A stretch of DNA of 64,000 nt from a virus. Under the pieces are notes generated by a model that was not told the DNA's origin, made no database searches, and saw only the letters and a list, made by a program, of their open reading frames with translations. The stretch spans positions 1 through 64,000 of IMG/VR virus record IMGVR_UViG_3300031834_000002; one strand, given 5' to 3'. The translations under genes were made by a program, and so were the position numbers. This document shows positions 11,535 to 60,127 of the stretch, in pieces (position 1 is the first letter of the stretch; the number at the start of each line of letters is the position of its first letter).

Positions 11535-11679
11535 AACAAGGCATATATGGAATAGAAATCCTAAAACGCAAATTGTGCCTAATAAAAAACATAAAATAGA
11601 TAAAAATTTATCCATTGATTTATTAAAAGGACAAAAAATAACAGAAAGAGATTTAGATGAATTAGATGAAGTATATTAA
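11512..11679 (+). CDS. Small basic hypothetical protein, 55 aa
   Basis: Overlaps the previous gene by 23 bases and is preceded by GAGGAATTAG. Lysine-rich first half, acidic end (ERDLDELDEVY). Unknown role. Confidence 0.4.
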   Translation: MKKIKRIKTRHIWNRNPKTQIVPNKKHKIDKNLSIDLLKGQKITERDLDELDEVY

Positions 11680-11689
11680 AAAGGAGTTT

Positions 11690-11869
11690 ATGGCAAAAGA
11701 AAGAACGTGGGATAACTGTCCATGTTGCGGAACAAAATTATTAAGAGAATATTGGGGAATGAAGGACGAAAATATAATTTGTTGGAGATATACTTGTGAT
11801 AATGGACAGTGTAAATTTGGAATTAATCTTGTAGATAGACCGATAAATGACACTGAACCTATAAATTAG
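11690..11869 (+). CDS. Zinc-ribbon mini-protein, 59 aa
   Basis: The ATG at 11690 has AAAAAGGAG five bases upstream and is preferred over an upstream in-frame ATG. CPCC near residue 10 and CDNGQC near 36 give a zinc-binding ribbon with an unusual second spacing. Function unknown. Confidence 0.5.
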   Translation: MAKERTWDNCPCCGTKLLREYWGMKDENIICWRYTCDNGQCKFGINLVDRPINDTEPIN

Positions 11870-11889
11870 TAGTATTATAGGAGGATTAA

Positions 11890-12297
11890 ATGCCTGATAA
11901 AGAATGTTGTGCAAATTGTAGATTTTATGTAAGCGACGGAAAATATTGCGATTATTGGGCTTATAATGTAGAATACTTAACAGGAGAAAAAGATGATTTA
12001 ATAAGTGTTTGTCCTGATTTCGAAAGAGCAAGATTAAAAGAAGATGAATACGAAGATGAAGAAGGAACTCAAAATTTAAAACCAATTGGAGATAATTATC
12101 CTACTTACAAATCATTAATAGTATCTTTGGGATTAAGAAAAGAAAGAACAACTATGGTAAAAAAATTATTAAATACAGAAAATAAGAGAATTACAAAAGA
12201 TGATATTATCGATATGCAAATTGACCTTTATCTATATGACAAAGGATGTAGAAAAGAAAAAATAAAACGAATTTATAAAAGAAAGAAGAAAGAATAA
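11890..12297 (+). CDS. Cysteine-rich hypothetical protein, 135 aa
   Basis: RBS ATAGGAGGAT. The N-terminus CCANCRFYV...YCDYW...VCPDF has a cysteine spacing seen in small metal-binding phage proteins (possibly Fe-S or zinc). An acidic linker and a lysine-rich helical end follow (KKEKIKRIYKRKKKE). Unknown role. Confidence 0.5.
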   Translation: MPDKECCANCRFYVSDGKYCDYWAYNVEYLTGEKDDLISVCPDFERARLKEDEYEDEEGTQNLKPIGDNYPTYKSLIVSLGLRKERTTMVKKLLNTENKRITKDDIIDMQIDLYLYDKGCRKEKIKRIYKRKKKE

Positions 12298-12298
12298 A

Positions 12299-12430
12299 AT
12301 GGTATATAAAATTTGCTTCTATATGATGTTGACAGGGTATTTAGGTTTATCATTACAGACCACAGATATAAAAGGAAAGTTAATTGGTATTGTTTTATTA
12401 ATAGCTAATGCTCTTATTTTTTATAAATAA
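12299..12430 (+). CDS. Membrane mini-protein, 43 aa
   Basis: Two hydrophobic segments (about 3-18 and 27-42) in a tiny frame between two genes. The upstream gene ends in AAAGAAGAAAGAA, a weak RBS. A promoter-like TTGCTT lies within it but lacks a good -10 box. Confidence 0.35.
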   Translation: MVYKICFYMMLTGYLGLSLQTTDIKGKLIGIVLLIANALIFYK

Positions 12431-12442
12431 GGAGATAATATT

Positions 12443-13600
12443 ATGAATAAAATTTGTGTTCGTAAAGAAGGGAAAGCAACTTTAGTGGGAATTTTAATTC
12501 CTATTGGGTCATATTACGAAGAACCTCATATAAAAGGAATTAGTCATTTTATTGAGCATTGTTGTTTTAAGGGAACTAAAAATAGAACACAGAAAGAAAT
12601 TAATCTTGCAATAGAACAATACGGTGGCGATATTAATGCTTTCACCGATAATGAGATTACATTTTATTGGGCTAAAATTGCTAATCAATATAAAGATATA
12701 GCAATAGATGTTATAACTGATATAGTAACTAATCCTATATTTCCTTCTAAAGAAATAGATAAAGAACGAGAAGTAATTTTACAGGAATTAAAAATGTATG
12801 AGGATAATCCTTCTCATTATATTTATCAATTAGCAAATGAACATTATTATCCTAAAGATAATGGATTTTATTTACCAATAATAGGAACAGAAAAAACTTT
12901 ACAAAATATTAATAAAAAAGAAATATTAAATTATTATAAGAAATATTACAATAATCCTACTTTAATTATTATCGGAGATGTTAAAGATGAACTCTATATG
13001 GAAGAAGAATTGTCATTGGATTATCCTGATTATAGAATTCCTACAAAATTTAAGCGAAGAATATTTGAAAATAGAAAAGATATTAGTCAGTCAATTATGC
13101 TTATAAAAGCAGATGTTAATGTATCAGAATTTTCTGGCTTAGAAAAAGAATATTTAATGGACTTATTATCAGAAGTATATAATGATATGAGTGGTAGATT
13201 ATTTTCTAAAATAAGAGAAGAATATAATCTTGTTTACAGAATTCATTTTGGTATTACTATGAATTCTAATGGAATTATTAATTGGGAAGTTAATTTAGGA
13301 TTAAATAAAAATAAAATAAATAAAGCATATGATTTAATAATAAAAGAATTAAATCGACCTATCACAAAAAAAGAATTAGAAATCGCAGTTACTAAAACAA
13401 TAGGCTCTCAAGCCCTTAGAATTGAAAGTTTAAATTGTATTGCAGAAACAATTGCCTATGGAATAAGAGCCAATTTAGATTGGAATGAATATTTATTTAA
13501 TTATGAAAAAAATATTAATAAATATAAAAATAATTTGAATTATTTTTTAAAAAAGATGAATTTTAAAGAAAATATAATGGCAGGGATTATTCCTAAATAA
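12443..13600 (+). CDS. M16-family zinc metallopeptidase, 385 aa
   Basis: The inverted zinc motif HFIEH at residues 35-39 is followed by FKGTKNRTQKEIN and QYGGDINAFTDNEITFYW, and the third ligand lies in REVILQELKMYEDNP, as in mitochondrial processing peptidase-like and PqqL/YmxG-like enzymes. The second half (from about 200) matches the non-catalytic M16 C-terminal domain. No signal peptide, so it acts in the cytoplasm. M16 peptidases are rare in phages; the substrate is unknown. Confidence 0.85.
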   Translation: MNKICVRKEGKATLVGILIPIGSYYEEPHIKGISHFIEHCCFKGTKNRTQKEINLAIEQYGGDINAFTDNEITFYWAKIANQYKDIAIDVITDIVTNPIFPSKEIDKEREVILQELKMYEDNPSHYIYQLANEHYYPKDNGFYLPIIGTEKTLQNINKKEILNYYKKYYNNPTLIIIGDVKDELYMEEELSLDYPDYRIPTKFKRRIFENRKDISQSIMLIKADVNVSEFSGLEKEYLMDLLSEVYNDMSGRLFSKIREEYNLVYRIHFGITMNSNGIINWEVNLGLNKNKINKAYDLIIKELNRPITKKELEIAVTKTIGSQALRIESLNCIAETIAYGIRANLDWNEYLFNYEKNINKYKNNLNYFLKKMNFKENIMAGIIPK

Positions 13601-21929: not shown

Positions 21930-22076
21930 ATGAAATTTACAGAATTAGGAACTCTAATTATCAGAAAATTTTTATGTGTTATATTTAAACACCGATTTAT
22001 TGATGATATTGTTACTCGTTATCCAGATTATTCTCATATAAATTATTGTGTTAAATGTGGTAAGATTAAAGGATAA
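21930..22076 (+). CDS. Small hypothetical protein with CxxC, 48 aa
   Basis: Strong RBS AAGGAGG. Hydrophobic first part, then YCVKCGKIKG at the end. Similar short proteins ending in CxxCG/K occur several times in the window (near 38.6 and 34.7 kb). Function unknown. Confidence 0.45.
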   Translation: MKFTELGTLIIRKFLCVIFKHRFIDDIVTRYPDYSHINYCVKCGKIKG

Positions 22077-22077
22077 A

Positions 22078-23253
22078 ATGAAGAAAAATTTAAAATATCT
22101 TTTTATATTAAGTGCTTTTATTTATTTTGCACAAGGGTTTGAGGGAATTGTAAATTTACCTCTTTTCTTTTATCTTAAAGAACATTTACATTTATCTCCA
22201 CAGAAAATAATGTATATTTCTTCTATTATAACATTAGTTTGGTTAATCAAACCTGTATTCGGATATATTATCGACCAATATTTTAATAAGAAGATATGGA
22301 TAATTTACTCATTAATAGGAAGTATTTTTATATCTTTATATTTTGGACTATCTCCATTACTAACTTTACCTTTAATTTTAGTTGGAGCGACTTTAGGAAG
22401 TTATTTTACTGCTACAAGAGATATTGCAAATGATGGGTTGGCTTGTTGTGAAGGAAAAGAAAGCAATACATGTGATATTTTTCAAAATGTGCAATGGACT
22501 TCTTTGACTATTGCAGGAATAATTACAAGTCTTGCAGGTGGATTTATAGCAGACCATCTAAATTATAAATTTGCTTATTTATGTTTACTTCCAATTTATT
22601 TAATTATATTAGTTATCATCTCTAAATATTCAAGTCGTCAACAAGTTGTCAACAAAAAACAAAAATTATTGCCTACTATATTATCATATAAAGAATTATT
22701 CACTAATAAAGCATTTTTATTAGGAGGTTTATTTATATTTCTATTTAATTTTAATCCTTCATTTGGAACACCTTTGCAATTTATAGAAAGAGATGTTTTT
22801 AAATGGTCAGGAAGTTTTATGGGAATTATCGGAGCAATTGCTTCTGGTATTAGTATTATAGGGTCTATTATTTATTATAAATTCAGTAAAAAACTTGATA
22901 TTCAAAAAATATTATATTGGTCTGTATTTATTGGTGTTTTAACAACTCTCTGTTATCTTTATTTTACACCTATTAGTGCAATTATTTACACTTGCATATT
23001 CAGTGTATTAGGAATGTTTATTTTTCTTAATCTTATGACATTTATGGCTCGTTCTACTATTAAAGGAAAAGAATCTACTTCATTTGCTTTATTTTGTTCT
23101 ATCTCTAATTTAGCAGGAACTTGTTCGACATTAGTAGGTGCATGGCTTTTTCCACTTATAGGATTGAAATGGCTTATAATTATATCAGCAATTACTTCGT
23201 TCTTTTGTTTACCTTTGATAAAATATCTTAAATTGGAGGCTAATAATTCGTGA
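22078..23253 (+). CDS. BT1-family MFS transporter, 391 aa
   Basis: About twelve membrane helices over the whole length. The PVFGYIIDQYF segment after helix 2 and FNFNPSFGTPLQF in the second half fit the BT1 (folate-biopterin) branch of MFS transporters. The ATG at 22078 follows AAAGGATAA. Transport of folates or another small solute is inferred from the family; the substrate cannot be read. A full-size MFS transporter is a very uncommon phage gene. Confidence 0.7.
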   Translation: MKKNLKYLFILSAFIYFAQGFEGIVNLPLFFYLKEHLHLSPQKIMYISSIITLVWLIKPVFGYIIDQYFNKKIWIIYSLIGSIFISLYFGLSPLLTLPLILVGATLGSYFTATRDIANDGLACCEGKESNTCDIFQNVQWTSLTIAGIITSLAGGFIADHLNYKFAYLCLLPIYLIILVIISKYSSRQQVVNKKQKLLPTILSYKELFTNKAFLLGGLFIFLFNFNPSFGTPLQFIERDVFKWSGSFMGIIGAIASGISIIGSIIYYKFSKKLDIQKILYWSVFIGVLTTLCYLYFTPISAIIYTCIFSVLGMFIFLNLMTFMARSTIKGKESTSFALFCSISNLAGTCSTLVGAWLFPLIGLKWLIIISAITSFFCLPLIKYLKLEANNS

Positions 23254-31994: not shown

Positions 31995-32157
31995 TACATG
32001 TTCTTGTGGTCAAGAAATAAATACAACTGGAATAGGATATAGTCATAGAGTTTATAATGGTCAAGGCGAAGTTATTTATGAACAATGTATGCATGGATGT
32101 ATAACTGTAGATATAAGAATAGATATAGACCCAGATTATTTAGGAGATTTAGGATGA
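31987..32157 (+). CDS. Small hypothetical protein, 56 aa
   Basis: Overlaps the cupin end and shares ATGA with polB, thus couples to it. Has CSCG and CMHGC cysteines and an acidic end (DIRIDIDPDYLGDLG). Unknown. Confidence 0.45.
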   Translation: MNNTCSCGQEINTTGIGYSHRVYNGQGEVIYEQCMHGCITVDIRIDIDPDYLGDLG

Positions 32158-34400
32158 GACTTATAAATATATTTAATTTTCGCAGAGATGTATATACTTT
32201 TTGGAGAGAAGATAATAATGACTTAAAAATTACTAAATGGACAGGATTTTTTCCATATTTTTATGAAAAAGATTCGAATGGAACTTTTAAATCCTATAAA
32301 GGAGATACTTTAAAACGTTGGATAGTTTCTGAACCAGCAGAAGTAGCGAAAAAGCGTTCTGTTCATGCTTTCGAAGCTGATATTCTTTTCACCAAACGTT
32401 TTTTAATAGATAAAGTAGATATTATAGAAAAATGTCCTATCAAAGTAGGATTCGTTGATATTGAGATTCAAGCACCTGAATTACCTAATGTAACAGATGC
32501 TAAATACCCAATTTCTTGTATCTCGGTCTACAACTTCTTGTCTAAAACTATACAAACTTTCTTCTTGCCAGAATACGAAACAGAATATAAAATGATAGAT
32601 GCTTTTGTTCTATATTTACAAAAAGAAAAATTTGATATTTTAACAGGATGGAATTTTGTTAAGTTTGATTTTCCTTATCTTGCAAATAGATTTCCAGACT
32701 TTGTAGAAAAAATAAGCCCTATTAATAAATGCAGATATGGCGATGGTCAAGTTTTTTATCCTGCTGGAGTTTCTATTGTAGATTATCTTATTTGGTTTAA
32801 AAAGATTACTTTAAATAGAGAAAAAGTATATACCTTAGATTATGTATCTCAAAAACATTTAAAACAACCTGCCAAAGTAAAATTAGATTTTATGAAATTA
32901 ACTCCTGAATTAAAAGAAAGAAATATTAATGATGTGAAATGTCTTGCAGGATTAGAAGATAAATTTAATTTAATAGGTTATTTTGATGAAATCCGAAGAT
33001 TAACTAAAGTTGAATGGGAAGACCTTGAATTAAATAGTAGAATGATTGATATGCTCTTATTAGAGGAAGCCAAAATACAAAAAGTAGTATTACCAATGAA
33101 ACCTGCCGAAGAACGAGGCACTCTTGAAGAAGAATCTGAATTTCAAGGAGCTTATCGAGAAATATTTCAAACAGGTAGATTTGAGAATGTTTATAAGGCA
33201 GATATAGCCAGTGCTTATCCATATAGTATTATAAATTTTTGTTTAGACCCTGCAAATATTATTTCAACAAAAAGTGATAATTCTATCACTATAAATGATA
33301 ATGAATTTATCCAAAATGATAATGCACTTCTTCCTACTGTAACTAAAAAATTAATTACTCTTAAAAATACTATTAAACAAGAATTAAATAATACTTCTGT
33401 AGATGCTTTAAATTATAAAGAAGTTAAACAAAAATATGATGCCATTAAAAGTTTAGTAAATTCTGCATTTGGAGTTATGGGTAATCGCTTTTTTAGACTT
33501 TATGACCCTAAAGTTGCAAGCAGTATTACTTTCATTGTGCGGTCGTTATTACACTATGCAAAAGATAAATTAACAGAAAGAGGATGTAAAATATTATATA
33601 TAGATACTGATGGTATTTTTTATCAGGCAAAAGAAGACCAAATAGATTATCTTAATCAATTAATTAAAGAATGGGCAAAAGAAAAATTTAATAAAGAGAA
33701 TGTAGATATTATTTTTGAAAGCGAAGGAATTTATGAAAAAATACTTTTATTAGCATTATGTCGTTATTATGGATTACTTAGAAAATCTAATGGAGAATTA
33801 GAAACTGAAATTAAAGGTATAGAAATGAAACGTAAAGATTCTACTAATTATTTAGTTATATTCCAAAAAACTCTTATTAATAAAATTTTAGATAATGAAC
33901 CAAAAGATAAAATTTATGATTGGATAAAAAACGAAATTAACAATTTTCAAAAACAAAATCTTATAGATATTTCTTTGCCCTGTAAATTAGCTAAATCTCC
34001 AGAAGAATATAAAAATATTCCTATTTCGGTTAGAGCTTTAAAAAATACTCCAAACTTTAAACATAAAATCGGAGACGCTTTTTATTATATTTTCATGGAA
34101 GGCAAAGACACTACTGAAAAAGAAATGGTTATGGCTTTAAGTGAAGACCAACTTGACCATATTAATAAAGAAAATGTGGATTGGCAAAAAATGTTAGAAA
34201 GAAATATAATAATGAAATTATCTGTAATCTTTGAAGCGATGAAATGGAATATTACTGATATTTATACTGCTCCGCCAAAAGCTAAAAAAAGAGTCAAAAA
34301 GGTCTCAAATACCCTTGATTCTGCCTTAGATTCCTCTATTATAGAGGCAAGGCAAGAAGATGACAAAAATCAGGTAGAAGATACTCAAAAGGAGGAATAA
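32154..34400 (+). CDS. Family B DNA polymerase, 748 aa
   Basis: The ATG at 32154 overlaps the previous stop; an upstream in-frame start would overlap a whole small gene. Exonuclease motifs: VGFVDIEIQAP (Exo I, about 104), LTGWNFVKFDFPYL (Exo II), and a less canonical Exo III near NDVKCLAGLEDKFN. Polymerase motifs: YKADIASAYPYSII (A), IKSLVNSAFGVMGNRF (B, with Phe for the usual Tyr in NSxYG), LYIDTDGIF (C). The acidic/basic tail (about 700-748) could bind a clamp or ssDNA-binding partner. It is the replicative polymerase. Confidence 0.9.
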   Translation: MRLINIFNFRRDVYTFWREDNNDLKITKWTGFFPYFYEKDSNGTFKSYKGDTLKRWIVSEPAEVAKKRSVHAFEADILFTKRFLIDKVDIIEKCPIKVGFVDIEIQAPELPNVTDAKYPISCISVYNFLSKTIQTFFLPEYETEYKMIDAFVLYLQKEKFDILTGWNFVKFDFPYLANRFPDFVEKISPINKCRYGDGQVFYPAGVSIVDYLIWFKKITLNREKVYTLDYVSQKHLKQPAKVKLDFMKLTPELKERNINDVKCLAGLEDKFNLIGYFDEIRRLTKVEWEDLELNSRMIDMLLLEEAKIQKVVLPMKPAEERGTLEEESEFQGAYREIFQTGRFENVYKADIASAYPYSIINFCLDPANIISTKSDNSITINDNEFIQNDNALLPTVTKKLITLKNTIKQELNNTSVDALNYKEVKQKYDAIKSLVNSAFGVMGNRFFRLYDPKVASSITFIVRSLLHYAKDKLTERGCKILYIDTDGIFYQAKEDQIDYLNQLIKEWAKEKFNKENVDIIFESEGIYEKILLLALCRYYGLLRKSNGELETEIKGIEMKRKDSTNYLVIFQKTLINKILDNEPKDKIYDWIKNEINNFQKQNLIDISLPCKLAKSPEEYKNIPISVRALKNTPNFKHKIGDAFYYIFMEGKDTTEKEMVMALSEDQLDHINKENVDWQKMLERNIIMKLSVIFEAMKWNITDIYTAPPKAKKRVKKVSNTLDSALDSSIIEARQEDDKNQVEDTQKEE

Positions 34401-44134: not shown

Positions 44135-44627
44135 AATAGAATTTAATCCTAAAGTGCTTGGTTCATATTTTGAAAATAATGTGCGAGAAATGTGTAAATC
44201 TTGCAAACGTTATAATATTAGTTCATCTTGTCCTCCTCATATAGAAACAATAGAATATTATAAAGAATTACTTCCTACTTATTGTAATGGAGTATTATTT
44301 ATCAAAAAATTTATTATAAATGATATAAAAAACTGGCAAGAATTAGGAAGAAATTCAAGTGAAGAATTGAGAATAGAAATGAAACCATTTATAGATGGAT
44401 GTATTTATGAAGGTTGCGATGAATATGACTATTATGGTGCTGGCTCATGTAAAAATTGTATAAAATGTTCTTATCCATGTAAATTTCCTAATAAACAATT
44501 AATTCCTATAGAAGGAACTGGTATTAATGTAATAAAATTAGTTAAAGATTTAGCAAATATAGATATTAAATTTCCTGTAGAAAATTATGGATATTTTTAT
44601 AGAGTAGGACTGATATTATGGGATTGA
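44112..44627 (+). CDS. DUF2284-like metal-binding protein, 171 aa
   Basis: Cysteines CKSCKRY...SCPPH (about 30-45) and CKNCIKCSYPCKFP (about 115-128) match the DUF2284 family, which probably binds an Fe-S cluster. The frame allows ATG at 44112; TTG at 44127 has GGAGGA at a better distance and may be the true start. Its place inside the glycan cassette is unexplained. Confidence 0.65.
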   Translation: MEDLELDKIEFNPKVLGSYFENNVREMCKSCKRYNISSSCPPHIETIEYYKELLPTYCNGVLFIKKFIINDIKNWQELGRNSSEELRIEMKPFIDGCIYEGCDEYDYYGAGSCKNCIKCSYPCKFPNKQLIPIEGTGINVIKLVKDLANIDIKFPVENYGYFYRVGLILWD

Positions 44628-45070
44628 AAAAAATAATCTACAGTTCTGGTTCGTATGACCTTTTCCATTTTGGTCATCTAAATGTGCTTCTACAAGCTAA
44701 AAAGTTAGGTTCTATTCTTATTGTAGGAGTTAGTTCGGATAAACTTATAAAATCTTATAAAGGATTAAACCCTATAATTTGTTATAAAGATAGAGCCTCC
44801 ATTGTTAAACAATTGAAATGTGTAGATAAAGTAATTAAACAAGATACTTTCTTTGATATTAAACAATTACATAAATACAAAATAGATATTATTGTTCTTG
44901 GAGACGATTGGAAAGAAAAATCTTTTCCTGAATTAGAAAAATGTCTTAAAGAACTTAATATAAAAATAATATATGTGCCTTATACTAAACGATTGTCAAC
45001 TTCTACTATTAAAGAGACAATTATTAATAATGCCGTCAAAATTATCAAGGCACAAGTAAAAAGAATATGA
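44618..45070 (+). CDS. Cytidylyltransferase, TagD-like, 150 aa
   Basis: SGSYDLFHFGHLNVL (8-22) gives the HxGH motif and LSTSTIKETI near the end the ISST-like motif; length is that of glycerol-3-phosphate cytidylyltransferase. It would make CDP-glycerol (or CDP-choline/ethanolamine-like donor) from CTP. Its neighbours, LicD-type transferases, use CDP-linked donors, so a pathway is suggested. Confidence 0.75.
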   Translation: MGLKKIIYSSGSYDLFHFGHLNVLLQAKKLGSILIVGVSSDKLIKSYKGLNPIICYKDRASIVKQLKCVDKVIKQDTFFDIKQLHKYKIDIIVLGDDWKEKSFPELEKCLKELNIKIIYVPYTKRLSTSTIKETIINNAVKIIKAQVKRI

Positions 45071-45147
45071 AAACAAGAAAAGAATTAGATAAATATAATA
45101 AAAAATCCCAAAATAAATATCATAAAAAATGGCAAAAGAAAAGATGA
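45067..45147 (+). CDS. Possible 26-aa basic peptide
   Basis: A short frame that begins with an ATGA overlap and ends with an ATGA overlap to the next gene; very lysine-rich. The double coupling supports translation, but it could also be a remnant of a basic domain. Unknown. Confidence 0.3.
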   Translation: MKTRKELDKYNKKSQNKYHKKWQKKR

Positions 45148-45725
45148 TAGAACCTATTTATAATAGAGAATATTTTAGTGATAGAAACGAAGACCTAAAA
45201 AATCAGCATATTAAAGATATTTTAGATTTAATAGAATTTTTTAAAGATGTATTTAACTTAAAACTTTATATCGGTTATGGAACTCTCTTAGGTGCTATTA
45301 GAGAACATGATTTTATTACACACGATAAAGATATTGATTTAGTTTATATAAGTGCTTATGAATCGAAAGAACAAATTAAAAGAGAACTTTTATTTAAAAT
45401 TGCAGAAATATTAAAACAATATAATATGTTAGTAAAAGATTTTAATAATAGAGGTCAATTACATGTAAGAGTTCCAAATGGAAGTTTAGTTGTAGATATT
45501 TTTACCTCTTGGATTTCTAATAATATGTATAATCTTGTTCCTTTTGGAGAACTTTGTTCAAAAGATATAATTTATCCTTTTAAATCTTGTTTACTTAGAA
45601 ATGCATATTTTGAAATTCCTAATCAAAGTGAAGTATTGCTTAATATTTTATATAAAGATTGGATGAATTCAATACCAAAAAATGAAAACTATTTAAAACT
45701 TTTAAAAAGGAACGATTTAAAATGA
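45144..45725 (+). CDS. LicD-family transferase, 193 aa
   Basis: IGYGTLLGAIREHDFITHDKDIDLVYI (about 42-68) is the LicD nucleotidyltransferase-fold motif with the metal-binding DxD. LicD enzymes transfer phosphocholine or similar groups from a CDP donor to glycans. I prefer the ATG at 45144; one at 45129 would add five residues. ATGA overlap with the next gene. Confidence 0.75.
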   Translation: MIEPIYNREYFSDRNEDLKNQHIKDILDLIEFFKDVFNLKLYIGYGTLLGAIREHDFITHDKDIDLVYISAYESKEQIKRELLFKIAEILKQYNMLVKDFNNRGQLHVRVPNGSLVVDIFTSWISNNMYNLVPFGELCSKDIIYPFKSCLLRNAYFEIPNQSEVLLNILYKDWMNSIPKNENYLKLLKRNDLK

Positions 45726-48025
45726 CACAAACAGAATTATTATTAAAAGTAAAAGAATTATTAGATAAAAATAATATCTCTTTTTGGCTAATGGGAGGAA
45801 CTTTATTAGGAGCTGTTAGAGATAAAAGTTTTATAAAACATGATGACAAAGATATTGATATAGGACTTTATTCTAAAGACCAATGGAAAGTTAAAGAATT
45901 AATAGAAAATTCGGAATTTAAGTTTAAATATTGTTGGAGAAAAGAATTTGCAATTCATTATGGAGAAGAAGTTCATCCTCATTTAGATTTTTTCTTTCAC
46001 GATATAATAGATAATAGTGCTCATTGGTATTTTTATACTCCGAACCAATTTGATAAAATTTGGAATGTCGAAAATAGATTAACAATATCTAAAAAAATTT
46101 TAGAACCTTTAAATACAATAGAATTCTTAAATACGACTTTTAAAGTTCCTAATAAAACAGAAGAATACTTAGTAAATTGTTATACTGAAAACTGGACAAC
46201 TATTAATCCTGATTGGCATTATAGTCAAATACCTGCCTTTGAACCAGATTATCAACCAATTACTGCTATTGTTCCTTCTTTTTTAAGAGACGAATGTTTA
46301 GCAAAATTAGTTACTTCTTTTAGAAAATATTATCCTAAAATGCCTTTAATTATAGGCTATCAAGGGAAATCTCAAAATCCTATTATACCTGATGAATATA
46401 CTAAAATTCTTGAATTACCATATGATTGTGGACTTTCTTGTTCCAGAAATTCTTTAGTAGCAGAAGTAAAAACTCCTATGACATGGCTTTTAGATGATGA
46501 TTTTATTATATCTCCCACTGCTAATATCTATAAAATGGCAGAAGTATTTGGTGCAGATAAAAATATAGGCATTGTTGCTGGAAGATTTCTACAAAATAAT
46601 GAAATATTTCCTTATGAAAAATTATTTGAATTTAGCGGAGATATGTTATTTGGAGTTTATTGGGAAGCCTTACATAAGGCTAAATTAGTTCATCTTTATA
46701 AATATAATAGATTAGAATTTGGTTATGCTGATATTGTGCATAACTTTTTTATAGCTAAAACAAAAATATTAAAAAAATATACTTGGGATAATCGACATAA
46801 AGTGCATAGTGTAACCGAAGAAACTCCTGTTATTATTAAAGATGGGTTTAATAATATTAAAATTATACCTATAGAAAATTTAATGCCACAAAGTTATCAA
46901 ACATTAAAAAATAAAGAATGGAAAGTCAAAGGAAATATATCTATTTGGAGCGATATAGGATGGCAAAAAATAAAATATGTGTCTAAACATACTGTTAATA
47001 AAAAAATGTATAAAATTAAAACAGTAAAAGGATTTATCGAATGTTCTGAAAATCACAGTTTAATAATTAATAATAAAGAAGTAGAACCTAAAACTTTAAA
47101 ATTGAATCAAACTATAGAACAACTAAATTTTCCAAAATTAAATAACGAAATAAAATTAAATAAATATTGGGCTTGGTTTTTAGGATTCTTTTTAGCAGAA
47201 GGGTGCTATAGAAAAAATTATATAAGTATCTCTAATCAAAATTTAAAACATCTTAAAAGATGTATGAAGGCATTAAATATGTTTGGAATCGAATATCATT
47301 TAGTAGATAAAAAACAACGAAAAGATAAATGTTATCAATTACAAATACATAATACTAAAATATATGCAGAATATTTTCGTAAATTTTATACTCCAAATTT
47401 TAAAACTAAAACAATACCAAATTTTTTATTTAAAACAGATAAAAAATCTCGATATAATTTTATTAATGGATTTTTAAATGGAGATGGATATAAAAAAGGA
47501 AGAAAATATAGACATAATTATAGAACTTTTTCTTCTAAATATCTTAATGTTTTACAAGGAATTTCTTTTTTATTATCAGATTTTATAACTCATTATTGGT
47601 TTAATATAGACCAAAATGAATTAGGTAAATGGTGGGTTTTTAACTTTTCATCTTCTAATTTTCCTTCTCATAAATCTGTAAATATTATTACTAAAATAGA
47701 GTCCTATAATGCAATCCAAATACCTTTATATGATATAGAAACCGAAAATCATCATTTTTGCGGAGGGATAGGAAATATTAACTTACATAATAGTGAACAT
47801 TTAGACTTTTTCTTAAATCTAAAAATAAATTCTAATGTAAAAGTTGCTTTTATTCCAAATCTTACAGTTATTCACGATAAACAGACAAACTCTGTATATA
47901 AAGAACATAGAACAAGGCAATATTATGACTTAATTTATGAAAAGTATGGTTTAAGAATAGGATATAGTTTAGGAGAAAATAATATATTTAATTATAAAGA
48001 AAATAGATTGGAAAAATTACCATGA
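45722..48025 (+). CDS. LicD-glycosyltransferase fusion interrupted by an intein, 767 aa
   Basis: Residues 1 to about 165 form a LicD domain (MGGTLLGAVRDKSF, DDKDIDIG); residues about 178-362 and 691-767 form a GT-A glycosyltransferase (ITAIVPSFLRDE, WLLDDDFIIS as DxD). Between them sits a 328-residue intein. After splicing, the join reads HKVH-SEHLDFFLNLK, which matches the catalytic E-H-x-D region seen uninterrupted in the paralogues at 48.0 kb (VIEHSHVYLLLK) and 49.4 kb (CEHEDIMYRFK). The mature protein is 439 aa. It likely builds and decorates a glycan. Confidence 0.8.
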   Translation: MTQTELLLKVKELLDKNNISFWLMGGTLLGAVRDKSFIKHDDKDIDIGLYSKDQWKVKELIENSEFKFKYCWRKEFAIHYGEEVHPHLDFFFHDIIDNSAHWYFYTPNQFDKIWNVENRLTISKKILEPLNTIEFLNTTFKVPNKTEEYLVNCYTENWTTINPDWHYSQIPAFEPDYQPITAIVPSFLRDECLAKLVTSFRKYYPKMPLIIGYQGKSQNPIIPDEYTKILELPYDCGLSCSRNSLVAEVKTPMTWLLDDDFIISPTANIYKMAEVFGADKNIGIVAGRFLQNNEIFPYEKLFEFSGDMLFGVYWEALHKAKLVHLYKYNRLEFGYADIVHNFFIAKTKILKKYTWDNRHKVHSVTEETPVIIKDGFNNIKIIPIENLMPQSYQTLKNKEWKVKGNISIWSDIGWQKIKYVSKHTVNKKMYKIKTVKGFIECSENHSLIINNKEVEPKTLKLNQTIEQLNFPKLNNEIKLNKYWAWFLGFFLAEGCYRKNYISISNQNLKHLKRCMKALNMFGIEYHLVDKKQRKDKCYQLQIHNTKIYAEYFRKFYTPNFKTKTIPNFLFKTDKKSRYNFINGFLNGDGYKKGRKYRHNYRTFSSKYLNVLQGISFLLSDFITHYWFNIDQNELGKWWVFNFSSSNFPSHKSVNIITKIESYNAIQIPLYDIETENHHFCGGIGNINLHNSEHLDFFLNLKINSNVKVAFIPNLTVIHDKQTNSVYKEHRTRQYYDLIYEKYGLRIGYSLGENNIFNYKENRLEKLP
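46808..47791 (+). mobile_element. Intein with LAGLIDADG endonuclease inside a glycosyltransferase
   Basis: Ser1 in SVTEETPV starts it (residue 363 of the precursor). Block B is ECSENHSL, the endonuclease has FLGFFLAEGC and FINGFLNGDGY as its two LAGLIDADG helices, block F is PLYDIETENHHF, and block G ends LHN (residue 690) before Ser691. All blocks needed for splicing look intact, though the usual penultimate-His/Asn end is present as HN. Length 328 residues. Confidence 0.85.
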
Positions 48026-49365
48026 AAATTAAATTTAATAAAGAAGTGGCTATTGGAATAACTACATTTCTTCGCAATGCTTCGTTATATAAACTTATCG
48101 AATCTATATGCGAATATTTGCCAGATATTAAAATGTATATAGTAGACCAAAATATATCCACTAAATTTAAAAAAGCTTTATATGAAGGATTAAAAACTCA
48201 AGGACATGTCATCAAAAGTATTGAATACGATTGCGGAATAAGCAATGCAAGAAAAATACTTAAAAATTTAGTAAAAGAACCTTTTATAGCTTGGATGCAA
48301 GATGATTTTACTATTACTCCTAAAACTAATTTAATGAATATGGTAAATATTTTAAAATCTAACCCCAAACTTGGTGTAGTAGGAGGAAGAATAGAAGGGT
48401 CTCCTATAGCAGGAAGTTATAGTTATTATTTTCTAAGATGGGGAGATGGGCTTTTTTATTTACCTGTAAGCCATTGTTTAGAAAAAGGAATTATTCAATG
48501 GCAAAAAACTCCTGAAGGACTTTCGTATGTTCCTGCTGATATAGTATCAGAATTTACAGTTTGGAAAAAAGAAGTTCCTAATATTTTCGATGAAAAAGTT
48601 AAAGTTATAGAACATTCTCATGTTTATTTACTTTTAAAATATAATACTAAATGGCAAGTTGCTTATACTCCTGATTCTGAAATCATACATTGGCATGATA
48701 GAAATGAACCTGCCTATACTAAATTTAGAAGTAGAAAAGAAGATATAGACTACATTCAAAAATATTGGAATATAACAGAATGGGTAAAATTCGATGTTAA
48801 TAAATATAAATTTTTACTTGAACATATTAATTATCATATTCCTATAACAAATAATAGAATATTAAAGAACGAATCTATTCCATTAATACCAAAAGATTCT
48901 CTCAAAGAAAAAATTGAAAAAGATAATCAAACTTTACAAACTCTTTCTACTGATATTACTATTAGTCCTTCTCTTAATATGATTAATGCTGAAATTTATG
49001 ATATATTTAATGAATTTATTTCTATTATGAATAATTTTGATAAAAATTGTTTTTTAAGAGAGCAAACTTGTTGGGAAGCTGTAGTAAAACATTCTATTAT
49101 TACTTCTCCTTTGTATATATCTATTCCTAAATTGAATCAATACGAATTACAATGTCTAATTAATAAAGGATTTAATTATATTGAATCAAATAATACCTTT
49201 ACTAAAAATAATTATTCTATAATTGTAGATTATAAATTACCTCAAAATTTTAAAATCGTAACTGTCGAAAATGGTAAATATTTAGTGCCTTTTCCTGTCC
49301 ATCCATATTTAAAACGATTATATGGACAAGATTGGAAAGAATTAGGTAATAAAAATGGGAACTAA
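48022..49365 (+). CDS. Glycosyltransferase with C-terminal LicD-like region, 447 aa
   Basis: ATGA overlap. VAIGITTFLRNASL and WMQDDFTITP (DxD, about 94) mark a GT-A domain (to about 255), with EHSHVYLLLKYN. The C-terminal 170 residues (CWEAVV..., VPFPVHPYLKRLYGQDWKEL) resemble the end of LicD/fukutin-like proteins but lack a clear DxD. The domain order is the reverse of the neighbour at 45.7 kb. Confidence 0.6.
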   Translation: MKIKFNKEVAIGITTFLRNASLYKLIESICEYLPDIKMYIVDQNISTKFKKALYEGLKTQGHVIKSIEYDCGISNARKILKNLVKEPFIAWMQDDFTITPKTNLMNMVNILKSNPKLGVVGGRIEGSPIAGSYSYYFLRWGDGLFYLPVSHCLEKGIIQWQKTPEGLSYVPADIVSEFTVWKKEVPNIFDEKVKVIEHSHVYLLLKYNTKWQVAYTPDSEIIHWHDRNEPAYTKFRSRKEDIDYIQKYWNITEWVKFDVNKYKFLLEHINYHIPITNNRILKNESIPLIPKDSLKEKIEKDNQTLQTLSTDITISPSLNMINAEIYDIFNEFISIMNNFDKNCFLREQTCWEAVVKHSIITSPLYISIPKLNQYELQCLINKGFNYIESNNTFTKNNYSIIVDYKLPQNFKIVTVENGKYLVPFPVHPYLKRLYGQDWKELGNKNGN

Positions 49366-50209
49366 AATAGGAATTATAGTTACAACTTTCTTACGCAATT
49401 CTTTATTAGAACGAATTATTGGTTCTATTTTAGCCAATTGGAAAGATGAATATATCCTCTTTATAGGTAATCAGGGGATTTTAGACGAAAATCATCTTAA
49501 ATACCTTCAAAATGCCCTTAATTTACAGGGGTTTAAGGCAGAGAATTCAATAATTAACGATATTACAGGACAATCTACCAAAAAAGCGAAAATAGATGGT
49601 TTATTAGCATATAATGACAAAATTAAGTATTATAGATTGTCTTATGATTGTGGACTTAGTTATGCTCGTAATTTCTTAGTGCAAGAAGCAAATAAAGTAG
49701 GATGTAATTATATTTTTCTTACCGCAGATAGTTATGAATTTAAAGATTATAATTTAGAACCAATAATAGAATTTTTAGAATCCGATGATAAAAATGGTTT
49801 AGTAGGATTTATTGAAGATGAAAAAAAAGACCCCTATTGGAGTTGGGATTTAGAACTTGTTCCTAATCAACATTTTTTATTAAAAAGACCTAAACAACCT
49901 ATAATAGAATTTAAAGAACTTAAATTTCAACCTTGCAATGTAACCCAAAATTTTTATTTAGCAAAAACTAAAATGCTATTAGATGTTCCTCATGATAATG
50001 ATTTGAAATTATGTGAACATGAAGATATAATGTATCGTTTTAAATTAGCTGGTTATAAGGTCTTTTTTAATGATTCGATTCATTGTAAATATATTAACCA
50101 AAAACCAAACGAATATTCTGAAAAAAGACAAAGAATCTATAATGAATTTAAAAAGAAATTACAAGAAAAATATCATATTAAAGGATGGATAAGAATAGAT
50201 AGAAGTTAA
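49355..50209 (+). CDS. Glycosyltransferase (GT-A), 284 aa
   Basis: IGIIVTTFLRNSLLERII at the start, SYDCGLSYARNFLVQEA (about 88-104), FLTADSYEF and CEHEDIMYRFKLAGYKVFF (about 222). A third GT of the same type as its two upstream neighbours. The overlap of 11 bases suggests coupled translation. The usual DxD appears as TADS, so metal use may differ. Confidence 0.7.
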   Translation: MGTKIGIIVTTFLRNSLLERIIGSILANWKDEYILFIGNQGILDENHLKYLQNALNLQGFKAENSIINDITGQSTKKAKIDGLLAYNDKIKYYRLSYDCGLSYARNFLVQEANKVGCNYIFLTADSYEFKDYNLEPIIEFLESDDKNGLVGFIEDEKKDPYWSWDLELVPNQHFLLKRPKQPIIEFKELKFQPCNVTQNFYLAKTKMLLDVPHDNDLKLCEHEDIMYRFKLAGYKVFFNDSIHCKYINQKPNEYSEKRQRIYNEFKKKLQEKYHIKGWIRIDRS

Positions 50210-58994: not shown

Positions 58995-59363
58995 TCATCG
59001 CCACCCCAAAGAATTAAGAGATTTTATAAAGGTGTCATTTATATTATATTCTATTCTCTCTATATTACTATTTTTTAAATTAATTTTATAACAAACAACT
59101 TTATCATTTTTAGACCCCATAACATAAGCATATTCTAAATTAACTTTTCCATTATTTTTACCATTCAAATCATTAGTGCCTTCAATAAAATGATAGTATT
59201 TATCATACATATCTAAACATAAATGGTTTCCATCAGGAAGAGTATAGAATAATCTTTTAATCTTTTTATCTGGAATTTCTGTCCATTTTGTTTTATAATA
59301 ATCTCCTCCTGTGTAGATACTTTCGTCCTCAAGAACTGCTACAAAAAGAGGTTTAATATTCAT
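58995..59363 (-). CDS. Hypothetical protein in tail operon, 122 aa
   Basis: ATGA overlap with the endonuclease upstream in the operon. Beta-rich, with LFVAVLEDESIYTGGDYYKTKWTEIP and IEGTNDLNGKNNGK. May be a tail accessory or immune-type cargo; not recognised. Confidence 0.5.
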   Translation of the reverse strand: MNIKPLFVAVLEDESIYTGGDYYKTKWTEIPDKKIKRLFYTLPDGNHLCLDMYDKYYHFIEGTNDLNGKNNGKVNLEYAYVMGSKNDKVVCYKINLKNSNIERIEYNINDTFIKSLNSLGWR

Positions 59364-60127
59364 GAGATTACTCCTATCTTTTGTAAATCTTTCTCGAAAA
59401 GAACTTTAAAATTTACCTCGGAATATATTTTTCTAAATAAATTTATTTTGTTCTTAGCAATTGTAGTTAAATAACCTTTTATTTCTATATATTCTTTAGT
59501 TTTAGGTAAGTAAAAGTCAGGTGTATAAGTAGTATCTACTAAATCAAAAGTTTTAGATTCATATAACCATTTTATTTTTTCTCTGTCTAAATATTTAGCA
59601 TATTTTACTTCCCAATAACTTCTAAACCAAATATTATTATATTGCACAAATTTTGGTTTCATTGGTTTTCCGAAATTAGGATTATTCTTACCTGACATTA
59701 ATATACTCATTTTTTGTTTTGTTTCTTTTGTGCGAAGTTTATCTGTCATATTTATTCTATTGGCACATGATTTACAATGACCAATTCCATCTTTCCATGT
59801 CTTATATTCAATCCGTTTATCACAAATAGAACAATAATGATTGATTAAAGTTCTTCCATCTATAAAATTCAGAGCATTTTCTCCTGTTCTGTTTTTATTT
59901 GCAACACTTACTGCTGAATTTTTTCTACCTTTCATTATTTTACTGTGTTCTGGTCTTTTTTTACCTCTCCAGCAAGCAGTATCTCTTCGAGGAATATTAT
60001 ATTCTTTCAATCGATTATAAATAGTCATAGTAGTTGTATTTAATTCTATAGCAATTTCTTTCATTGATTTCTTTTTATTTATATATTCCTCGTAAAGAAA
60101 GTCAAATAAAATATTTAATTTTTTCAT
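59360..60127 (-). CDS. PD-(D/E)XK homing endonuclease with HTH and NUMOD3, 255 aa
   Basis: An N-terminal HTH (SMKEIAIELNTTTMTIYNRLKEY), NUMOD3 motifs (PEHSKIMKGRKNS, TKQKMSILMSGKNNPNFGK), a zinc ribbon (CSIC/CKSC), and a C-terminal nuclease with RSYWEVKYAKYL, YTPDFYLP and YIEIKGY, the E...PDF...ExK motif. Inserted between two tail genes. The NUMOD3 part matches that at 9.4 kb almost word for word. Confidence 0.8.
   Translation of the reverse strand: MKKLNILFDFLYEEYINKKKSMKEIAIELNTTTMTIYNRLKEYNIPRRDTACWRGKKRPEHSKIMKGRKNSAVSVANKNRTGENALNFIDGRTLINHYCSICDKRIEYKTWKDGIGHCKSCANRINMTDKLRTKETKQKMSILMSGKNNPNFGKPMKPKFVQYNNIWFRSYWEVKYAKYLDREKIKWLYESKTFDLVDTTYTPDFYLPKTKEYIEIKGYLTTIAKNKINLFRKIYSEVNFKVLFEKDLQKIGVIS

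Follow-up and report, generated by a model that had tools for sequence, protein, structure and literature searches.

A predicted class 1 Ser1 intein with a LAGLIDADG endonuclease in a phage LicD-glycosyltransferase fusion gene

The window analyzed here comprises bases 1-64000 (64,000 nucleotides) of an 89.8-kb IMG/VR virus record that carries phage genes, including those for a tape-measure-type minor tail protein, tail and baseplate proteins, PolB, and RecA; the terminase profile PF03237 was not found in this record. An ORF of 767 aa lies within a cluster that holds an SDR, a DUF2284 protein, a cytidylyltransferase-like protein, LicD, two further GT-A genes, and a family-less gene apparently common to contigs G003 and G001 (Table 1). 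LicD-like proteins adjoin or are fused to glycosyltransferase (GT) relatives in many related loci. By analogy with the LicD and FKRP relatives, it is plausible that the cluster adds phospho-substituents to a glycan, and the cytidylyltransferase-like protein possibly makes a nucleotide-activated donor for LicD. Elsewhere in the window we note a BT1/folate-biopterin-type MFS transporter (22048-23253; PF03092, 79.7 bits), an M16 peptidase (12443-13600; PF00675, 112.6 bits), and, on the minus strand, a free-standing nuclease with NUMOD3 and endonuclease I-like parts that is a candidate homing nuclease (59360-60127).

Table 1. Features of the interrupted gene and its neighbors, by window coordinates
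Feature	Coordinates	Strand	Evidence
Cytidylyltransferase-like protein	44618..45070	+	PF01467 74.3 bits; TIGR01518 below cut-off
Stand-alone LicD paralog	45129..45725	+	PF04991 30.6 bits
Precursor ORF, LicD-GT with in-frame intein, 767 aa	45722..48025	+	
N-extein LicD/fukutin-related-type domain	45722..46216	+	PF04991 39.6 bits (cut-off 22.6; 45.7 in spliced form); Foldseek FKRP 6kak E 1.2e-6
N-extein GT-A part (YDCGLS, DDD metal motif) ending ...WDNRHKVH	46253..46807	+	PF00535 24.9 bits (cut-off 23.3); B4GALNT1 by phmmer and Foldseek
Intein, 328 aa, Ser1 to His-Asn	46808..47791	+	TIGR01445 27.0 bits (cut-off 24.5); PolB intein block alignment; Foldseek
Intein block A (SVTEETPVII)	46808..46837	+	Block alignment with PolB inteins
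Intein block B (GFIECSENHSLI); B:7 Ser, B:10 His kept	47030..47065	+	Block alignment with PolB inteins
LAGLIDADG motif 1 (WAWFLGFFLAEG), acidic residue Glu	47168..47203	+	PF14528 match 47171-47383, 36.6 bits (cut-off 22.5); VMA intein alignment
Block D-like KTKTIPNFLF	47402..47431	+	Read from sequence
LAGLIDADG motif 2 (YNFINGFLNGDG), acidic residue Asp	47453..47488	+	Alignments to PolB and VMA inteins
Intein blocks F and G (PLYDIETENHHFCGGIGNINLHN)	47723..47791	+	Block alignment with PolB inteins
C-extein: Ser+1, EHLDFF (xED position, helix alpha-F start), strand, candidate C-terminal metal His (VIHDK)	47792..48022	+	EH conservation; model helix
Uninterrupted GT-A paralog (KVIEH)	48022..49365	+	PF00535 32.8 bits
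Uninterrupted GT-A paralog (KLCEH)	49355..50209	+	PF00535 32.7 bits

The 767-codon frame is open throughout, with no stop and no frameshift, in sequence of 27% G+C. LicD, Glycos_transf_2, LAGLIDADG_3, and the NCBIfam intein_Nterm profile all score above their cut-offs on the precursor (Pfam hits being judged against gathering scores), the first of these placing the protein in the LicD family; PF14890 Intein_splicing falls under its cut-off (13.9 vs. 35.8 bits). By Foldseek, the precursor model matches B4GALNT1 (E = 2e-12), FKRP, and other GT-A enzymes. The fold, the DD metal motif, and an EH at the xED position, conserved in a profile of 72 relatives, assign the second domain to the GT-A enzymes. 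These matches bear out the LicD-glycosyltransferase fusion that the original prediction for this locus had named as the host protein.

That prediction had also placed a 328-residue Ser1 intein with a LAGLIDADG endonuclease in the gene, and its coordinates are exact: The element comprises 328 codons, from precursor residue 363 (Ser1) to residue 690 (the terminal Asn), and its removal would leave a spliced product of 439 aa. The catalytic blocks A, B, F, and G of Ser1 inteins, which the prediction presupposed, are present. Ser363 aligns with the S1 of PolB inteins in block A, an N-terminal residue in keeping with class 1. In block B, where roles for Thr (B:7) and His (B:10) have been described (PMC4031507), the His is kept and Ser replaces the usual Thr. 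Blocks F and G (LYDIETENHHF...LHN) retain the Asp at F:4, the penultimate His (G:6), and the terminal Asn, and the +1 residue is Ser691, one of the three (Cys, Ser, or Thr) found in class 1. The endonuclease assignment is upheld by the PF14528 match and by two motifs with acidic residues, Glu rather than Asp in the first (LAEG) and Asp in the second (NGDG). No further intein_Nterm or LAGLIDADG_3 match occurs anywhere in the record. Confidence in the structural model of the intein is low (pLDDT 57.7); inteins with endonucleases lead its Foldseek matches, with TliVMA, PhoVMA, and PI-SceI at the top and PI-PkoII and I-DmoI also found. The sequence evidence for an intein is strong, and the agreement of profiles, Foldseek, and block alignment confirms the prediction of a LicD and GT-A fusion containing a class 1 Ser1 intein with a LAGLIDADG endonuclease.

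Comparison of the unspliced ORF with the inteinless LicD-LicD-GT protein of contig G003 gives homology over residues 7-361, followed by a gap, and restarting at residue 692; the spliced form gives a single continuous HSP of ∼400 residues (162 bits). Similarly, the B4GALNT1 E-value falls from 1.5e-6 for the unspliced to 3.7e-9 for the spliced protein, in a continuous alignment. Inteinless homologs and alignment of the spliced product to GT-A enzymes had been named as checks in the original prediction. A 72-member phage GT profile scores 197.1 bits on the full ORF and 220.2 bits after deletion of residues 363-690. This deletion ranks second among 375 scored constructs, the top being 362-689 (220.7 bits), which is equal in length and slid by one residue, so that the profile cannot separate the two; we chose 363-690, which puts Ser1 in block A and also leaves Ser at +1. 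In an unguided MAFFT alignment, the relatives shown place no more than one residue opposite the 328 of the intein, and the WD-to-EH spacing in the spliced product is seven residues, as is common in relatives. By HSP, MAFFT, spacing, and profile deletion, the insertion is seamless with respect to inteinless homologs. Comparison with the two paralogs gives an apparent extra residue before EH; we dropped the idea of an imprecise insertion because the seven-residue spacing is common among >70 relatives. Single-protein scans for near relatives of the extein or the phage found no close inteinless allele, a contig with a 62% identical RecA has no match to the LicD-GT gene, and a plasmid search gave no match.

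Among 72 phage GT relatives, 71 keep the Glu-His immediately after Ser+1. Helix alpha-F of GT-A enzymes begins with the xED motif, usually the source of the catalytic base; the xED Asp is missing from GT12, the B4GALNT1 family (PMC7185993). In the precursor model, whose extein halves are of high confidence and whose intein part is poor, residues 691-703 form the helix that follows the junction. Alignment and model together indicate that the EH motif occupies the GT-A xED position and, from the model, that the C-extein provides helix alpha-F; its VIHDK probably holds the C-terminal metal-binding His. The original prediction had put the insertion at an E-H-x-D catalytic region. The location, directly before the conserved EH, stands, but the Asp is frequent rather than invariant, one paralog having EHSH. 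The uninterrupted paralogs downstream are likewise real, but their Glu-His motifs follow the intein by ∼0.8 and 2.2 kb, not 0.7 and 2.0 kb. Since the insertion splits the active site, it is reasonable to infer that the precursor is inactive before splicing. Dependence of glycan synthesis on splicing, which the original prediction asserted, is a possibility at best, two intact GT paralogs lying adjacent.

In a tree of 14 inteins, the element groups with the PolB inteins of L094 and LR756508.1 (support 96/98), the partial PolB intein of L004 falling outside this group. Its closest relatives found among inteins are PolB inteins from phage or virus contigs, and the phage's own PolB (32085-34400) is without an intein, its YIDTDG motif uninterrupted. 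Among GT-bearing ORFs of related loci, no intein was matched at the EH site; the sole blastp match below 1e-3 in these loci falls in another ORF, on the second intein, that of G001. A single copy of the element is known and, as no other examined GT has an intein at the site, it appears to be a singleton whose host gene has changed. From these sequence comparisons, in which sampling is thin, the simplest account is transfer from one gene to an unrelated one.

Other contigs hold inteins as well. The second intein in a phage glycan-cluster ORF (L086, contig G001, 3090-5678) has a junction, EEFHCT/SLEAACFGAIPL, that resembles the GT-B EX7E motif; its extein gave no family assignment, glycogen synthase matching only weakly (E = 1.8), and the GT-B-like junction motif is the one hint of a glycosyltransferase host. 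At L085 (G003, 11657-13000), an intein that starts CFSLETEIL apparently interrupts, after GNHDH, a metallophosphoesterase ORF that reaches the end of the retrieved stretch. In L090 (contig G012), a methyltransferase-like ORF of 1377 aa contains three inteins, and a clamp-loader-like ORF contains one more. The ORF for the C-terminal half of PolB at L007 (LR756508.1) opens with a short N-extein, followed by an intein; this may be a split gene, as the N-part of the polymerase is absent from the stretch retrieved.

We consider it very probable that a PolB-lineage Ser1 intein resides in the LicD-GT gene, that it splices, that only the spliced form is active, and that the element spreads by homing. 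The 767-aa precursor would be made and then fold, and Ser1, the block B His, the penultimate His, the terminal Asn, and Ser+1 would perform the standard four-step splicing. Release of the 328-aa intein would join ...DNRHKVH to SEHLDFF... in the 439-aa enzyme, with the junction peptide ...DNRHKVHSEHLDFF.... Until then the half of the GT-A fold that binds donor and metal would be kept apart by the insertion from helix alpha-F and its xED-equivalent motif, which should leave activity to the spliced form alone. By cutting the empty allele of co-infecting phages, the LAGLIDADG domain would allow the intein to spread.

The Thr-to-Ser change at B:7, the Asp-to-Glu change in LAGLIDADG motif 1, and the two intact GT paralogs nearby would also fit a degenerate intein, impaired in splicing or homing, with a gene that is inactive or only released by cleavage while the paralogs do the work. 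We regard this as unlikely, since the element keeps every main nucleophile and most of the assisting residues, the extein retains its conserved GT motifs, and so long a frame has stayed open at this G+C content. Quite improbable is a wider proposal, that an intein of DNA-polymerase lineage moved to an unrelated phage GT and became a conditional on-switch for glycan modification, and that glycan-cluster inteins may recur, as the one in G001 might illustrate. Conditional splicing (by redox, metal, temperature, or host state) that times glycan modification in infection is very improbable: The insertion adjoins the active-site motif, which would make splicing an on-switch, and conditional splicing has been reported for other inteins (PMC6195587). 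However, a singleton absent from all relatives examined fits a selfish element better, and the paralogs supply similar chemistry. LAGLIDADG domains occur free-standing or in introns too, but a homing-endonuclease or other domain permanently fused into the enzyme, with no intein, is hardly credible given the exact empty-site fit and the presence of the splicing blocks (A, B, F, and G) at the two ends.

The favored reading, a splicing intein of PolB lineage, agrees with its likeness to the PolB inteins (L004, L094, and LR756508.1, and the solved PI-PkoII, 2cw7 and 9hth), which have in common with it Ser1, a His-Asn end followed by Ser or Thr, a TEDHSL-type block B, and the motif YDLETENHHFxxGxGNIxxHN. 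It differs from them in its glycosyltransferase host and in the Ser at B:7, and its identity to the two full-length ones is ∼26% (blastp). TliVMA, PhoVMA, and PI-SceI (7qsu, 7qst, and 1vde) combine a splicing domain with LAGLIDADG and are the best Foldseek and phmmer matches, but they have Cys1 (solved as C1A mutants), a V-ATPase host, and 11-16% identity by structure alignment. For the GT domain, the closest solved relative in sequence and fold is the GT12 enzyme B4GALNT1 (9h6j), which has AH where the phage family has EH and carries no intein.

Prokaryotic and phage inteins have mostly been described from DNA and nucleotide enzymes. A host in glycan synthesis suggests that target range tracks conserved active-site motifs and mobility, not replication function. 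The text of a mycobacteriophage survey has no word beginning "glycosyl" (PMC5050341), and within the incomplete literature covered, including an exact-phrase search, no publication turned up on an intein in a glycosyltransferase of a prokaryote or phage. The element is thus of a known family in a host gene uncommon for inteins. The surprise that the original prediction expressed at this host was overstated: Novelty is limited because fungal chitin synthases (CHS), which are glycosyltransferases, carry inteins (PMC5784728), likened to this one by host enzyme class alone, and because active-site insertion is typical of inteins (PMC7765530). As a candidate Ser1/Ser+1 intein, the element is a case for studying host-gene change, since its nearest relatives lie in DNA polymerases and the phage's own polymerase is empty.
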